DNA from: Alphaproteobacteria bacterium | Lineage (GTDB): Bacteria; Pseudomonadota; Alphaproteobacteria; Rhizobiales; GCA-2746425 | Direction of reading: 5' to 3' | DNA: 64,000 bases | Assembly: GCA_024743215.1 (NCBI GenBank) | Contig: JANSWZ010000003.1 | Span: 62,001 to 126,000, forward strand | In this document: piece by piece, positions 57,695-64,000 of the stretch | Layout of the letters: each line of letters starts with the position of its first letter | Position numbering within the stretch: the stretch's first letter is position 1 | Position numbers and translations under genes: made by a program | Notes under the pieces: model-generated | Seen by the model: only the letters and a program-made list of their open reading frames with translations | Database searches by the model: none | What the model was told of the DNA's origin: nothing

Positions 57695-58699
57695 TCAACG
57701 CTGAATAAGATGGCTTTCCAAATCGGGGTCACAAAATCCACCTGTTCCGAAGCAGCGGAAGTCACTGTTTTTCCTTTGAACGAAGACCGCATCAAGTTGA
57801 TGCTCGTTTGCCAGCGCTATGCCTGGCTCCAGACCCTTGACCAAAAGCGCTGTCGCCCAGGCATCTGCGGACATGCAGTTGGGAGCCGCAACCGTGACAG
57901 AGGCGATGTCATTTTCGACTGGCGCATCCGCACGTGAATCCATTGTGTGGGATACAAAACTGCCATTCATGAACCGCCGTTGTCTGTAATCGCCCGAGGT
58001 TGCCAGGGCGATGTCTGTGCCGTCAAAGGCAATCAGCGTGTCACGCCGGTGCAGATCCGGTCGCTCGATTGATAATGTCCATGGCTCACTATTGGGTTTT
58101 CCTCCGCTGGCGCGTAACTCACCATCTATTGAAACAAGGTAGTCCTGGATGTTTTCGCGCTCCAGTGTCCGGGCCAGTTCATCAACGCCGAACCCCTTCG
58201 CAATGCCGCAAAGGTCAAGCGACAGATGAACCCGCTTTCGGATCATGTGTGTGTTTGCATCAACATCAATTGCCAAATGGGCTGGATAGGAGTGAGCTGG
58301 TTTATTGTGAGGCTCATCTGCATGTCCACCGGGACCAAATCCCCACAAACCCACCAAATCACCGACATTCAAGTCAAAGGCACCATCGGACAATTCGCCA
58401 ACCTCCAGTCCCCTGCACAGTACGGCTAACATTTCCTTAGGTACTGATATCCATTCACCCTCCGCGGCCCGGTTCAGGCGGTTCAGAGCGGAGTTACTGA
58501 TCCAGGGAGACATTTGTGCATCGACCCGGTCAACCGCATGCTGAAGCCTTGACTGAAGGGCGGCAACGTTCCGGCCCAAAGGCGCGTAAAACTCTGCTGA
58601 ATAGCGTGTGCCCATTGTCGAACCGTTCAGCCGGTATCTGCAGGGGGCGAATGACCTGCTCAGGTTGTTGATTTCGAGTGCGGGGCTATCAGTAGACAT
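57695..58699 (-). CDS. apbE: FAD:protein FMN transferase
   Basis: 334 aa from the ATG at 58699. ApbE motifs are NGSTMGTRYS, LDLCGIAKGFGVD, VSIDGELRASGG, ATSGDYRQRR and ADAWATALLV. It attaches FMN through a phosphoester to Ser/Thr of target proteins. Unlike most ApbE proteins it shows no signal peptide or lipobox, so it may act in the cytoplasm. Overlaps the PepSY reductase gene by 11 bases; the exported DUF2271 protein is the probable substrate (inference). Confidence 0.92.
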   Translation of the reverse strand: MSTDSPALEINNLSRSFAPCRYRLNGSTMGTRYSAEFYAPLGRNVAALQSRLQHAVDRVDAQMSPWISNSALNRLNRAAEGEWISVPKEMLAVLCRGLEVGELSDGAFDLNVGDLVGLWGFGPGGHADEPHNKPAHSYPAHLAIDVDANTHMIRKRVHLSLDLCGIAKGFGVDELARTLERENIQDYLVSIDGELRASGGKPNSEPWTLSIERPDLHRRDTLIAFDGTDIALATSGDYRQRRFMNGSFVSHTMDSRADAPVENDIASVTVAAPNCMSADAWATALLVKGLEPGIALANEHQLDAVFVQRKNSDFRCFGTGGFCDPDLESHLIQR

Positions 58700-60896
58700 C
58701 TTCAAGATACCTGTTCTGTTGTTTCAACAGACTGACAGAGATGCCCAATGGCAGCAGTATCTGATCAATTGTGGCACGGACCGCTGTGGCCATGGCCTGT
58801 CCGCCGCACACCATTATCTGTGCGCCATTTGCTATCTGAGCTCTGATTATCTGGGCGTCTTCAGCTACCCGGTCCTGGACATATTGCCGCTTGGGGCCCT
58901 GAGAGAATGCCGGTTTCACACGGGAGAGATGTTGTTTCTGCAAACAGGACATGATCTGTTGTTGATAGATAAAATCCGTGCCGGGGTTGCGACCACCCCA
59001 GAAAAGCAACATCGGTCGTTTTATCCTGTTGTGCCGCGCAAATCCGGCAAAGGGAGCCATGCCAGTACCCGCACCGATCATGATGATTGCTCCTGAACCA
59101 CTGGCAGGTCTGAAGAGCGGGTTGGTTTTGATGAAACCGCTGATTTTTGCGCCCGGACGCAGACTGTGAAGGTGAGTGGAGCAAAGCCCGTTGCGGTGGC
59201 GCTTAACGCAGATTTCAACAAAGCCATCTCGTGATGCGGAGGCGAGCGAGTAGAAACGTGGCGCTGCATCGCCGGGCGGTGTTATGCCGATCAGATCGCC
59301 AGCTTCAAAGGCGATTGATTTTGCAGGCGTTTGCGGAAGTGCAAACCGCAATACAGCAATATCGGCGTCTTCTGTTTCTTTGTTTTTGATGATTTCTGTC
59401 AGCTTCCATTCATGACTTTTTGGCTGCTGCGGTAAATGGTTCAATGCCAGCTCAAGGTCCAACGCGCTGCTCAGTTTTGCGCCCCATCCCCTGAAGGATT
59501 GGGGGCACTGTTGATTGATGGTGTTGAACTCCATCAGAAGCGGAAATCCCTTCTTGATGAGGACTGCTTCAGTCCGTTTTGCAAATCCGCAAAAGTCTGG
59601 AAAGCGCGTGTCTCCAAACCCAAGCACAGCAATTCTTGCGTTTCCCGGGCCCGAAAGGTTTGATATTTTTCCCAGGAATTTATCCGCAGAGGCTGGCGCA
59701 TCTCCATCGCCATATGTGCTGGTCAGAACCAGCAGATTTTGTGCCTGGCAATGTTCATACGACACATCATTCATGGCGCATAGATGGACCTTTTGTCCGC
59801 GCGCTTTCAGGGCATTGCGAAGCGCTTCAGCAAATCCCCAAGTGGCGTTTCCCTGACTGCCCACGAGTATGATCGTGTCTGAGGAAACAACCGGATCATT
59901 GTTGGATAGTCGCGGTGCGGTGCTTTTGCGCTTCCACCAGATAAGTGCACCTGTTGTGCTCAAAACCGGAAGGCCTATTGCAGCTATGCCAAGAACAAGC
60001 GCCAGAATGGCTGATAGCCAACCGCCACCCTGACCGGTGTGCAGCATATAGACGGTCTCATAGAGTTTTTGGCCAAAGCTGTTTGGCGCAAATGAAATCA
60101 GTGTTCCGGTTGCCTGATCGACATAGCCCTGACCGGCACTGCTGTTGAATGCGAAGACATCTTCTGTGTCTCCGGCAAAGGGGAAAATCAATTCCCTTAG
60201 ATGAAGGACCGGGATTTGTTGGAGTGCTTCCAGCTGGGCGATCGGTCTGGGTGTCGTGCCGGCAACATTTGCCGGATATGGGGCATCCATATTGCTGCCA
60301 TCAGGGGCCAAATCAAATGTCGCCAGCGACATGTAAAGGCCTGTCACAGAAGACAAAAGCAGTCCGGCCACAGTGAGCTTGCCAATGCCGATGTGGAGGC
60401 GTTGAGACAAGGTTCCTGTTGTCGGCATGAAGTAATTTCCTACCCCGCCGCACCGCTTCACCAACAGCCAGGTTCCTGTCACCGTTAAGGCCAGCAGAAT
60501 GAAGGCTGAGAAACCCGTCAGAATCCGACCGCGATTTCCCAGAAAAAGAGAGCGGTGAAGTTCAAGCATGAAAGCTTCGAGCGCACTTGTTTCTGTTTCT
60601 GGTGCTGGTGTGCCAAGTCCTGTGGCGGGATCAATGATGGCTTTCCAATTGCCAGTATCATTGTTGCCATAAGCGATGATTGTGCCATTGGCCTTTCTGG
60701 ACAGGCGTTCAACACCGGATTGCTGGCTGGCAACGCGGTCCGCAAGTAACGCAACACTGTGTTGGGTGACAGGTGTTGGCGCGCCAACTGCAAGGTCAAG
60801 ACCCGGTTGAACCGCGAGAAAAGCACCGCTTACTGCCAGAACGCTGATGAGCAGCGCAATCAGAAGACCGGGAGCTGAATGGAGGGTTCGCATCAT
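58689..60896 (-). CDS. PepSY-domain membrane flavoreductase with flavodoxin and FNR-like domains
   Basis: 735 aa. The N-terminal half has PepSY-TM architecture: hydrophobic segments about 8-29, 122-146, 172-192 and 295-325 with histidines that can bind heme (ELHRSLFLGNRG, RLHIGIGKL, MLHTGQGGG). From residue about 345 come a flavodoxin domain (VGSQGNATWGFAEALR, TSTYGDGDAP) and a CysJ-like reductase with RFYSLASAS for FAD and MIGAGTGMAPFAGF plus FWGGRNPGTDFIY for NAD(P)H. Moves electrons from NAD(P)H across the inner membrane to a periplasmic acceptor. Middle gene of the DUF2271-PepSY-apbE set. Confidence 0.92.
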   Translation of the reverse strand: MMRTLHSAPGLLIALLISVLAVSGAFLAVQPGLDLAVGAPTPVTQHSVALLADRVASQQSGVERLSRKANGTIIAYGNNDTGNWKAIIDPATGLGTPAPETETSALEAFMLELHRSLFLGNRGRILTGFSAFILLALTVTGTWLLVKRCGGVGNYFMPTTGTLSQRLHIGIGKLTVAGLLLSSVTGLYMSLATFDLAPDGSNMDAPYPANVAGTTPRPIAQLEALQQIPVLHLRELIFPFAGDTEDVFAFNSSAGQGYVDQATGTLISFAPNSFGQKLYETVYMLHTGQGGGWLSAILALVLGIAAIGLPVLSTTGALIWWKRKSTAPRLSNNDPVVSSDTIILVGSQGNATWGFAEALRNALKARGQKVHLCAMNDVSYEHCQAQNLLVLTSTYGDGDAPASADKFLGKISNLSGPGNARIAVLGFGDTRFPDFCGFAKRTEAVLIKKGFPLLMEFNTINQQCPQSFRGWGAKLSSALDLELALNHLPQQPKSHEWKLTEIIKNKETEDADIAVLRFALPQTPAKSIAFEAGDLIGITPPGDAAPRFYSLASASRDGFVEICVKRHRNGLCSTHLHSLRPGAKISGFIKTNPLFRPASGSGAIIMIGAGTGMAPFAGFARHNRIKRPMLLFWGGRNPGTDFIYQQQIMSCLQKQHLSRVKPAFSQGPKRQYVQDRVAEDAQIIRAQIANGAQIMVCGGQAMATAVRATIDQILLPLGISVSLLKQQNRYLEDVY

Positions 60897-60912
60897 CGGA
60901 TCGGGCCTCCGG

Positions 60913-61395
60913 TCAGTGACTGATCGTAACCGATTTCACGAAACCTTTTCCGCGAGCAGAGGCCTGCGATTTGTCAGGATTTAGTTCAAGGGTTGCTTCG
61001 CCGCGATAATCAGCAACATCTTCAACAGCAGTATCGACGTGAAGTTTGTATCCGGCATTCAACAGAGCGTCTGCAATGTCTGCCTGGACTTCAAAACTGC
61101 GACCGGAACCAACACTGGCACCGGACACACCATCGACCGGGCGCCCCGATTTGGAAACACCTCGAAACCATCCACGCAGATGGCGGCGATATTTCTGCTT
61201 TCCGCCGCGCACAGCGACCGTTGAATGAAACTGGCCGTCCGGTTTTGTGAGGTAAAGAGCCACATAAGCCGGCGGTCCGCGAAAGGATTTCATGTTAACC
61301 GTGGCCGTTACCTTTTTCGCTTCAGCCTGGTCAACGGATATGATGGCTGCGCAAAGGCTTGCTGCAATCGCTACGGATGTAAAAAGCTTGTTCAT
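60913..61395 (-). CDS. Exported DUF2271 protein with flavinylation-like motif
   Basis: 160 aa from the ATG at 61395, which has GAAGGA nine bases upstream. A signal peptide (about 1-26, ending AEA) precedes the DUF2271 domain. Residues 88-94 read D-G-V-S-G-A-S, matching the D-x-x-S/T-G-A-T/S motif modified by ApbE, so Ser94 may carry FMN. First gene of the operon with the PepSY reductase and apbE; likely the periplasmic electron acceptor. Confidence 0.85.
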   Translation of the reverse strand: MNKLFTSVAIAASLCAAIISVDQAEAKKVTATVNMKSFRGPPAYVALYLTKPDGQFHSTVAVRGGKQKYRRHLRGWFRGVSKSGRPVDGVSGASVGSGRSFEVQADIADALLNAGYKLHVDTAVEDVADYRGEATLELNPDKSQASARGKGFVKSVTISH

Positions 61396-61523
61396 GGCGG
61401 GCATTCCTTCAACGTTTCGGAACTGACAAATGTTCATGAAACGTATCTGGCACCATCAAGCTGACAGCGGCCTGAAGACTGGCGATTGGTTTTAAATCGA
61501 CTTTTGGAAAGATAATGCCCGGC

Positions 61524-62333
61524 TTAAACGCGCCAGTTCAGCAGCCGTTTTTCAATCACACCAATTCCAAGGCTGACAAACACACCGAGAATGGACAGGA
61601 TCGTGACGCCGACGAACAGGCGTTCCAGGTCATAGAGCGATCCGGCCTCTAATATGTAAGCACCGATGCCGAATTCAGCGCCCAGCATTTCAGCGGCCAC
61701 AAGCAAAATGATGGCAATCGCCAGGCTGATGCGCAGTCCTGACAGAATGCCCGGCATGGCGCCGGGCAGCACAATTTTCCTGACAATGGAAAACCACGAC
61801 AGGGAAAAACTTTGGCCCATGCGAATGAGCGAGCGGTCGACATTGTCGACAGCGCCATAGGTGGCAACGACTGTCGGCGTGAATGTGCCAAAGGCGATCA
61901 GGGCATATTTTGATGTTTCATCAATGCCAAACCAGATGACAAACAATGGCAGGAGCGCGATTTTCGGGATCGGGAAAATGGCGGCGACCAATGGCACCAG
62001 ACCGGCACGGATCAGAGAAAACAGACCAATCAGAATTCCAATGCCTATGCCAAGGGACACACCAATGCTCGCTCCAACAATCAGTCGCATGATGGAAGGG
62101 AGAAGATGTTTCCACAAAAGCCCGCTTTGCCAAAGATCAACAAAGGTGGCGAAGACATCAGAGGGTATTGGTAAAGTCAGGTTTGTTATAAACCCGGTTC
62201 TGGTGCCAAGTTCGATAAAGCCGATCAACACAACAAAGACAACGATACCCACCCATTTTCTGGATTGCGGCGCAAATCCGCCGCCACGAAAATCTACGGT
62301 TTTGCGGGTGGAGTCTTGCCGTATTTCAGACAT
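61524..62333 (-). CDS. ABC transporter permease, nitrate/sulfonate/taurine type (SsuC/TauC-like)
   Basis: 269 aa with six predicted membrane segments and the coupling loop EAA-like region GTFTPTVVATYGAVDNVDRSLIRMGQSFS. RKIVLPGAMPGILSGLRISLAIA is typical of the family. Overlaps the ATPase gene by 8 bases. Belongs to the importer whose binding protein is cut by the right edge; the ligand is undetermined. Confidence 0.92.
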   Translation of the reverse strand: MSEIRQDSTRKTVDFRGGGFAPQSRKWVGIVVFVVLIGFIELGTRTGFITNLTLPIPSDVFATFVDLWQSGLLWKHLLPSIMRLIVGASIGVSLGIGIGILIGLFSLIRAGLVPLVAAIFPIPKIALLPLFVIWFGIDETSKYALIAFGTFTPTVVATYGAVDNVDRSLIRMGQSFSLSWFSIVRKIVLPGAMPGILSGLRISLAIAIILLVAAEMLGAEFGIGAYILEAGSLYDLERLFVGVTILSILGVFVSLGIGVIEKRLLNWRV

Positions 62334-63093
62334 TCAGCAATTCCTTATCGGCGGCAAGGGCCTCATCGCGCATCAGATTCCACAGGTGCTTTTGTTGCCG
62401 TTCCAGTTCCGGGTCGCCCAATTCACGCTCGCCAAGAGGGATTGTCACATCCACTATTTCCCGTATGCGACCGGGCCTGCGTGACAACACCACAATCGAG
62501 TGGCCCAATCGGACAGCTTCATTGAGATTGTGGGTGACGTAGACTGATGTGAAGGGGTCTCGTGTCCACAGGCCGACAAGATCATCCATCAACAATTCTC
62601 GCGTCTGGCTGTCGAGCGCTGATAGTGGCTCATCCATCAACAGGATGGCTGGTTTCACGGCCAGTGCCCGTGCAATGGCAACCCGCTGCTTCATGCCGCC
62701 CGATAATTGTTTGGGATAGGCTTTGGCAAATTCCGTCAGCTTTGTGCGGGCCAGCACATTGGCGATGATTTCTGTCACGCGGGCAGAGGGCATTCGATGA
62801 TCTTCCAGTACCAGGCTGATATTGCCCTCGACCGTGCGCCACGGCAGCAGGGCAAAATCCTGGAAGACATAGGTTAGGGGATTGATGCTGTCAGTTGGCG
62901 GCGTGCCGATCTGGACAATTTGGCCGGTGGTGGGCTGTTCCAAACCGCCGATGAGACGCAGAAGCGTAGACTTACCGCACCCGGACGGGCCAACAATGCA
63001 GACAATTTTTCCGGCTGGAATAGCAAGATCAATCTCGCTCAGGACCTCCAGGTCACCATAGTGATGGCCAACGGCTTCTAATCGAAGGTCCAT
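62326..63093 (-). CDS. ABC transporter ATPase, nitrate/sulfonate/taurine type (SsuB/TauB-like)
   Basis: 255 aa. Walker A VGPSGCGKSTLLRLIGGLE, Q-loop YVFQDFALLPWRTV, signature LSGGMKQRVAIARAL, Walker B LLMDEPLSALD and the switch histidine VTHNLNEAV are all intact. Located 86 bases after the binding-protein gene, with a hairpin terminator in the gap, and coupled to the permease. Confidence 0.95.
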   Translation of the reverse strand: MDLRLEAVGHHYGDLEVLSEIDLAIPAGKIVCIVGPSGCGKSTLLRLIGGLEQPTTGQIVQIGTPPTDSINPLTYVFQDFALLPWRTVEGNISLVLEDHRMPSARVTEIIANVLARTKLTEFAKAYPKQLSGGMKQRVAIARALAVKPAILLMDEPLSALDSQTRELLMDDLVGLWTRDPFTSVYVTHNLNEAVRLGHSIVVLSRRPGRIREIVDVTIPLGERELGDPELERQQKHLWNLMRDEALAADKELLNV

Positions 63094-63113
63094 ATTGCTT
63101 TCCGTGTCATTGT

Positions 63114-63148
63114 AAAAAGAAAAGGACGAGCGCTTGCTTGGCTCGCCC
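63114..63148 (-). terminator. Intra-operon hairpin terminator between binding-protein and ATPase genes
   Basis: On the minus strand an 8-bp stem (63148-63141 with 63131-63124, one G-T pair) and a 9-base loop are followed by TTTTCTTTTT. Probably lowers expression of the ATPase and permease relative to the binding protein. Confidence 0.65.
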
Positions 63149-63179
63149 TTCTGGTGATCGTGCTCTCAGGGTCGAGACC

Positions 63180-64000
63180 CTAGTTTGCGTAGGATGAATC
63201 GACCAATGTATCTATGGTGACACTGTCCTTGACCAGCTTTTCAGATTTGAACCAGTCCAGTTGATCCTGTACGGATGCAGTGTTCAAAGCCGCATTCGGA
63301 CTGATCCGCATCGCGCCATTGCGGATGCTTGGTGCTGCTTTTTCATATGGCCGGTCTGTATAGACATATTTGTGGACAAGCTTCACCATTTCTTCAGCGG
63401 CTTCATCGCCTGCCGTTTTATCAACCAATGCAGCGTTGAAATCATCTGCGCCTTTGGAAAAAGCACGCAAAAAGGCCAGACTCGTGTCACGATCATTGGC
63501 GGCCTTGTCAGCCGAGGTGAAGACGACTGTCACCTGATAGTCTGGAATGTAGTCCGCGACATTGCCGATAATATGCACGGCTCCCGAACCATCCAACGGT
63601 TTGGCGATGTGGGGCACAATGGACCAGGCATCCACCTGACCGGACTTCAGGGCACCGATAATCGCGCCGACTTTCTGCAATGGCTTGAAGGAGACCGCGA
63701 TGCCTTCTTTGGCCGCAATTTTTGCACCCATATAGTGAAATGAAGAGCCCGACTGGGTCATGGCAAAGCTTCGGCCATCCAGCTTGGATGGCTCGGTCAT
63801 GCCGTCTTTGAAGGCTGCATCGGACACAAGGATTTTCTGACCATCAATGGCTGGGTCTTCCATCAATGCGCCGCCAATCACTTTGGCCGCTCCTTTTTCG
63901 GCAAGGGAAATCAAGCCACCTGAAATTGCGGTCACTGCATAGTCAACATCTTTGGACGCGACTGCGACTGCCATGGGTTGGGCCGCCTGGAAGAATTTGA
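63180..64000 (-). CDS. ABC transporter substrate-binding protein, NMT1/SsuA-like (N-terminus beyond window)
   Basis: At least 273 residues; the frame runs through the right edge (in-frame codons continue before the Met at 63974), so the signal peptide is not seen. Features of the SsuA/THI5-like fold are visible: VASKDVDYAVTAISGGLISLAEKG, GRSFAMTQSGSSFHYMGAKIA, GALKSGQVDAWSIVPHIAKPL and PDYQVTVVFTS. The ligand may be a sulfonate, a pyrimidine or another small organic anion; nothing here decides. Start of the importer operon. Confidence 0.9.
   Translation of the reverse strand, partial: KFFQAAQPMAVAVASKDVDYAVTAISGGLISLAEKGAAKVIGGALMEDPAIDGQKILVSDAAFKDGMTEPSKLDGRSFAMTQSGSSFHYMGAKIAAKEGIAVSFKPLQKVGAIIGALKSGQVDAWSIVPHIAKPLDGSGAVHIIGNVADYIPDYQVTVVFTSADKAANDRDTSLAFLRAFSKGADDFNAALVDKTAGDEAAEEMVKLVHKYVYTDRPYEKAAPSIRNGAMRISPNAALNTASVQDQLDWFKSEKLVKDSVTIDTLVDSSYAN

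Follow-up and report, generated by a model that had tools for sequence, protein, structure and literature searches.

Where does an exported flavoprotein receive its covalent flavin when the flavin transferase encoded beside it is not itself exported? For covalent flavins beyond the cytosol, attachment usually follows export and so depends on FAD being present in the periplasm. In the window analysed here, i.e. the whole stretch of 64,000 nucleotides, an ApbE-type FMN transferase without a visible export signal is encoded together with a DUF2271 protein that carries one, and with a PepSY membrane flavoreductase.

Gene content and relation to known flavinylation systems

The three genes are all encoded on the minus strand in the order DUF2271-PepSY-ApbE, and Pfam assigned to them the domains proposed in the initial annotation. 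The ApbE start, either TTG 58705 or ATG 58699, overlaps the PepSY stop. The features of the locus are:

60913-61395, minus strand: exported DUF2271 protein, predicted flavoprotein, 160 aa (PF10029, 94.8 bits)
61114-61134, minus strand: predicted ApbE flavinylation motif D88-G-V-S-G-A-S94, with Ser94 as the putative FMN acceptor
58689-60896, minus strand: predicted PepSY_TM cytochrome fused to flavodoxin, FAD- and NADP-binding domains, 735 aa (Pfam)
57695-58705, minus strand: leaderless FAD:protein FMN transferase ApbE (PF02424, 239 bits)
61412-61444, no strand assigned: inverted repeat ACGTTTC-N19-GAAACGT upstream of DUF2271, read from the sequence itself
61524-63974, same strand: SsuABC/NMT1-type ABC transporter directly upstream of DUF2271

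The inverted repeat is possibly an operator, or may be due to chance. The ABC transporter was considered as a part of the system and rejected, as it does not adjoin the cluster in any of the 20 same-order loci inspected. The three-gene set itself does not reflect chance, as dozens of genomes show the same gene order and a leaderless ApbE as well.

The general system is not new but was published in 2021, when Méheust et al. reported 3220 PepSY-like flavinylation clusters, 2833 of them with DUF2271, and showed that the cognate ApbE of an A. ursilacus DUF2271 protein attaches the flavin to the residue of the motif (PMC8238504). As in the clusters described there, the locus encodes a PepSY_TM protein (PF03929, 131.5 bits; the published clusters are defined by PF03929 or PF16357, and a subset of their PepSY_TM proteins has a NAD-binding domain) beside apbE and DUF2271, the latter with the [S/T]GA[S/T] target motif, here SGAS. 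It differs from the system as presented in that paper by its gene order, by having no DUF4198 gene, by the complete flavodoxin-FAD-NADP half of its PepSY protein, and by its DUF2271 protein, which belongs to a short divergent subtype. Furthermore, the cognate ApbE in that account had its signal peptide truncated for expression, whereas the ApbE investigated here is leaderless.

The DUF2271 protein and its flavinylation motif

The DUF2271 leader reads MNKLFTSVAIAASLCAAIISVDQAEA, followed by KK, and is of the Sec type, with an AxA site and no twin arginine. It is kept in the relatives, whose leaders are N-positive and have a conserved AxA site. A cytosolic ApbE paired with a cytosolic target would call for a target free of export signals, and a Sec-type leader was instead found in the relatives examined. 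The structure model of the protein (pLDDT 84.7) gave no significant match in a PDB fold search (best E 0.037).

The sequence D88-G-V-S-G-A-S94, numbered from the MNKLF start, is present as first described and fits the rule D-x-x-[S/T]-G-A-[S/T]; a seven-residue motif suffices for ApbE (review, PMC12052999). The initial annotation had named lack of conservation as one observation that would speak against its reading. In an alignment of 35 sequences, in which the relatives are 26–47% identical, G92, A93 and S94 never vary (35/35); position 88 is mostly D and otherwise N or S.

A predicted di-heme cytochrome fused to a diflavin reductase

The 735-residue PepSY protein, ending in RYLEDVY, comprises PepSY_TM, Flavodoxin_1, FAD_binding_6 and NAD_binding_1 domains according to Pfam. 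Its membrane half contains four hydrophobic helices, and this even number together with the basic short loops places the flavodoxin/FNR half in the cytosol. Four histidines (H6, H114, H168 and H286) are invariant in the 35-sequence alignment. A profile of the membrane half matched the Pseudomonas aeruginosa PepSY protein FoxB (7abw, E 8e-10) with the conserved histidine positions aligned, and two heme sites with two conserved histidines each have been described for 7abw (PMC11334425). The helices and the two histidine pairs thus predict a FoxB-type di-heme cytochrome, in line with the membrane heme initially proposed. The ferri-siderophore reductases FoxB and HiuB share the PepSY_TM fold and the four heme histidine positions (7abw; PMC13001220); FoxB (382 residues in 7abw), however, has no flavodoxin/FNR half.

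In the cytosolic half, CysJ was the best curated model, and P450 reductase and CysJ were the best PDB matches by both sequence and fold. Together with the presence of flavodoxin, FAD and NADP domains, this indicates a reductase of the NADPH diflavin (CPR/CysJ-like) type, in keeping with the flavoreductase initially proposed. The top 50 hits of the fold search with the PepSY protein were diflavin-reductase proteins only, the link to FoxB coming from the membrane-part profile. A single-sequence scan of the genome contigs with the PepSY protein gave no match. The fusion protein was also considered as an alternative ApbE target, and this was rejected since a motif occurs only sporadically (5/35).

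The ApbE is leaderless across the lineage

The closest PDB match of the ApbE was 6nxi, an FAD:protein FMN transferase. Residues S237, H253 and D281 of the ApbE encoded here are conserved with the same spacing as the catalytic S241, H257 and D285 of Vc_ApbE (review, PMC12052999), and both fold and catalytic Ser/His/Asp place the protein in the enzyme family. The signal peptide or lipobox of a canonical periplasmic ApbE was found neither here nor across the relatives. An in-frame stop lies 35 codons before TMGT, the motif opening the ApbE fold, and the residues in between are hydrophilic, with a Kyte-Doolittle mean over 11 residues of about 0.4 at most. As only these 35 hydrophilic codons are available, no leader is encoded regardless of the start codon; the true start, which the initial annotation wished to see tested, is either TTG 58705 or ATG 58699.

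The presence of leaders was judged by a hydropathy rule, i.e. the maximum 11-residue mean before the fold, and applied to 80 named loci gathered by PepSY profile from Devosia, Pseudomonas, Massilia, Rhodobacteraceae, Mesorhizobium, Marinobacter and others. DUF2271 directly precedes PepSY in all 80, and ApbE follows PepSY in 62, none of which showed an obvious leader. The median maximum was 0.16 for these 62 ApbEs versus 2.27 for the DUF2271 leaders. The leaderless pattern recurs in the other genomes with this DUF2271 subtype, often with only 21–43 open codons before TMGT; in a few high-GC relatives, the frame upstream of ApbE stays open over a long distance. Except for one fused copy, second ApbEs of the same genomes had twin-arginine (Tat) or lipobox leaders, demonstrating that the method sees leaders where they are present. 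The clash between a leaderless ApbE and a Sec-exported target, pointed out when the locus was first annotated, is thus real and lineage-wide.

A leaderless ApbE is also known from Klebsiella, where it serves a soluble fumarate reductase; that target is cytosolic, unlike the Sec-leader-bearing target here (PMC12052999). Among the DUF2271 loci of DUF4198 type (L055-L096), the ApbEs mostly showed no obvious leader either (e.g. MTRQVLVPLELSP...), and leaderless ApbEs may be common for DUF2271 in general. Single-chain ApbE-DUF2271 fusions with clear Sec leaders were observed at four loci (L097, L099, L100, L114); in this third arrangement, the two parts leave the cytosol as one chain.

The genome of the window itself contains a second ApbE, which is Tat-exported and encoded in an NQR operon (L034:9869-14968, contig C6). 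The FMN_bind protein in the NqrC position of this operon carries DGISGAS.

Sole-ApbE genomes, a gene fusion and ApbE phylogeny

Twelve of the 35 genomes have no intact ApbE other than the leaderless one, which must be the enzyme acting on DUF2271 in them, provided that the protein is modified at all. FMN_bind proteins were found in none of these 12 genomes versus 16 of the 19 with a second ApbE (Fisher p 3e-6, uncorrected for relatedness). Based on this distribution, the leaderless ApbE appears to be dedicated to its own DUF2271, and the exported ApbEs to other targets.

One genome (G027) encodes a second copy in which PepSY_TM, flavodoxin and ApbE form a single frame of 814 residues (L152:697-3138), without the FAD/NADP half. 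The ApbE domain stands after the cytosolic flavodoxin, and the fusion adjoins a DUF2271 gene carrying DGITGAS. In a tree of 110 sequences, the leaderless ApbEs and the fusion formed one group, separate from exported ApbEs and from DUF4198-associated ApbEs, with support of 96/95 without the long-branch sequence L072 and 90/77 when it was included.

A different situation was found in 10 marine gammaproteobacterial genomes with DUF2271-PepSY and no local ApbE, where the motif is kept and the single ApbE is exported. These genomes suggest that modification of the motif may be possible in the cytosol as well as in the periplasm and that DUF2271 is likely periplasmic. The broader proposition that all ApbE-less clusters rely on an exported ApbE was rejected, as 5 of 18 such genomes hold a leaderless ApbE elsewhere, and the comparison was for this reason limited to the 10 single-ApbE genomes.

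Together, the sole-ApbE genomes, the fusion and the tree favour cytosolic flavinylation before Sec export. The option of FMN addition before export, raised in the initial annotation as one way out of the conflict, is the one supported by the first two of these.

Alternative explanations

Another exported ApbE might flavinylate the periplasmic DUF2271, the leaderless ApbE serving some other, cytosolic target. The window genome does have the Tat-exported enzyme of the NQR operon, which could serve DUF2271 too, and the marine Gammaproteobacteria make periplasmic modification seem possible. We nevertheless regard this explanation as unlikely: in 12 genomes that have this cluster, the leaderless ApbE is the sole intact one, its gene lies inside the DUF2271 operon, and the PepSY fusion protein, as a candidate for the other target, has no conserved motif. 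Export of the leaderless ApbE by a non-classical route, e.g. carried by a partner, would remove the clash with the Sec-exported target. This is quite improbable, as the cluster has no conserved Tat partner or secretion signal, the DUF2271 leaders are Sec-like, and the fusion places ApbE behind a cytosolic flavodoxin domain.

It is less probable still that the DUF2271 domain stays on the cytosolic side, with an uncleaved N-terminal helix as its anchor, and encounters ApbE and flavodoxin there. Both partners are predicted to be cytosolic, but the N-positive leaders with their AxA site, the occurrence of the same DUF2271 subfamily where all ApbE is exported, and the signal peptide of the published DUF2271 protein (PMC8238504) argue against such anchoring. 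There is a similarly slim chance that the motif is a relic and that DUF2271 here carries no flavin. Residue 88 does vary among the relatives, but replacing the motif Asp (Asp to Ala) had only a minor effect on modification by ApbE (review, PMC12052999), a DUF2271 relative is flavinylated at the same motif (PMC8238504), and G92-A93-S94 is invariant among relatives of 26–47% overall identity.

Genomic context points to iron or metal reduction

An OmpR-type response regulator and a histidine kinase, with PmrA/QseB and QseC as the nearest curated models, are encoded just past the window end at 64000 (L033:8466-10480). Of the clusters of this subtype, 30 of 35 and 57 of 80 have homologues of the two nearby, and none of 45 other DUF2271 loci has the pair beside it; the two-component system thus travels with this DUF2271-PepSY subtype. 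Right behind the pair lies a ferric-reductase-like membrane flavoprotein (L033:10500-11864), with homologues near 11 of the 80 relatives. A small exported PepSY_2 protein stands in front of the cluster in loci inspected. Directly behind ApbE, the relatives often encode a member of a protein cluster typified by a VIT1 family iron transporter (21 loci, e.g. L173:9206-9904) or by a P-type ATPase (16 loci, e.g. L208:9175-11085); for each of these three protein clusters, one representative was identified by Pfam.

Caulobacter CC_3059-3063 similarly combines DUF2271, ApbE and a ‘sulfite reductase flavoprotein (heme)’ in one neighbourhood and is listed as iron-responsive and Fur-regulated, but it has a DUF4198 and a transporter gene where an OmpR-type two-component system is found here (PMC3751524). 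The VIT1 and P-type ATPase neighbours and this Fur-regulated cluster point to a role in iron or metal reduction. DUF2271 was absent from four other genomes of the same genus, which suggests that the cluster is an accessory element in this organism.

Proposed mechanism and its implications

Most likely, the products of the three genes form an electron line that leads from NADPH in the cytosol to a flavin-tagged protein beyond the inner membrane. The computational support consists of the order of the genes, their domains, the conserved motif, the lack of a leader on ApbE, the genomes with a sole ApbE and the fusion; we infer the binding of heme and FMN at this locus, the direction of flow, the acceptor and the export after modification. 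In the PepSY protein, electrons would go from NADPH to FAD and on to FMN within the cytosolic diflavin-reductase half, then cross the inner membrane via two hemes b on the four conserved histidines and reduce the covalent FMN on Ser94 of periplasmic DUF2271. This protein would in turn pass them on within the periplasm, with ferric iron or another metal complex as the most likely acceptor. The sequence-level tests were favourable to the route through flavodoxin/FNR and membrane heme to a periplasmic FMN that the initial annotation had suggested. The leaderless ApbE, with FAD and Mg2+ at hand in the cytosol, would attach FMN to the short linear motif of the DUF2271 precursor, and the flavinylated chain would then be exported through Sec. 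We consider this explanation as a whole, from the NADPH line to Sec export after flavinylation, to be the probable one.

Sec passes unfolded chains, which counts against export with FMN attached. Sizable rigid cargo reportedly passes the SecYEG pore, and passage of an FMN-bearing chain is plausible. The pore has been probed with preproteins carrying sizable rigid molecules (Bonardi et al. 2011, cited in PMC5355892). A Salmonella ApbE moved to the cytosol, as summarized in a review, did not complement, which also speaks against the proposal, although the target was a different one. In the open-access literature we found neither a report of Sec export of flavinylated chains nor a discussion of the conflict between a leaderless ApbE and a Sec-exported target, and the locus apparently represents an undescribed, conserved relocation of ApbE within a known kind of system.

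A whole ApbE clade has, on balance, probably been relocated to the cytosol, where it loads FMN onto an exported carrier before Sec and requires no periplasmic FAD supply. If true, attaching FMN first would give exported flavoproteins a second route of assembly and would test the tolerance of the Sec channel. There are also consequences for surveys in which a signal peptide on ApbE or its target is a prerequisite for counting flavinylation, and an operon with a sole ApbE offers a simple genetic system for locating flavinylation.
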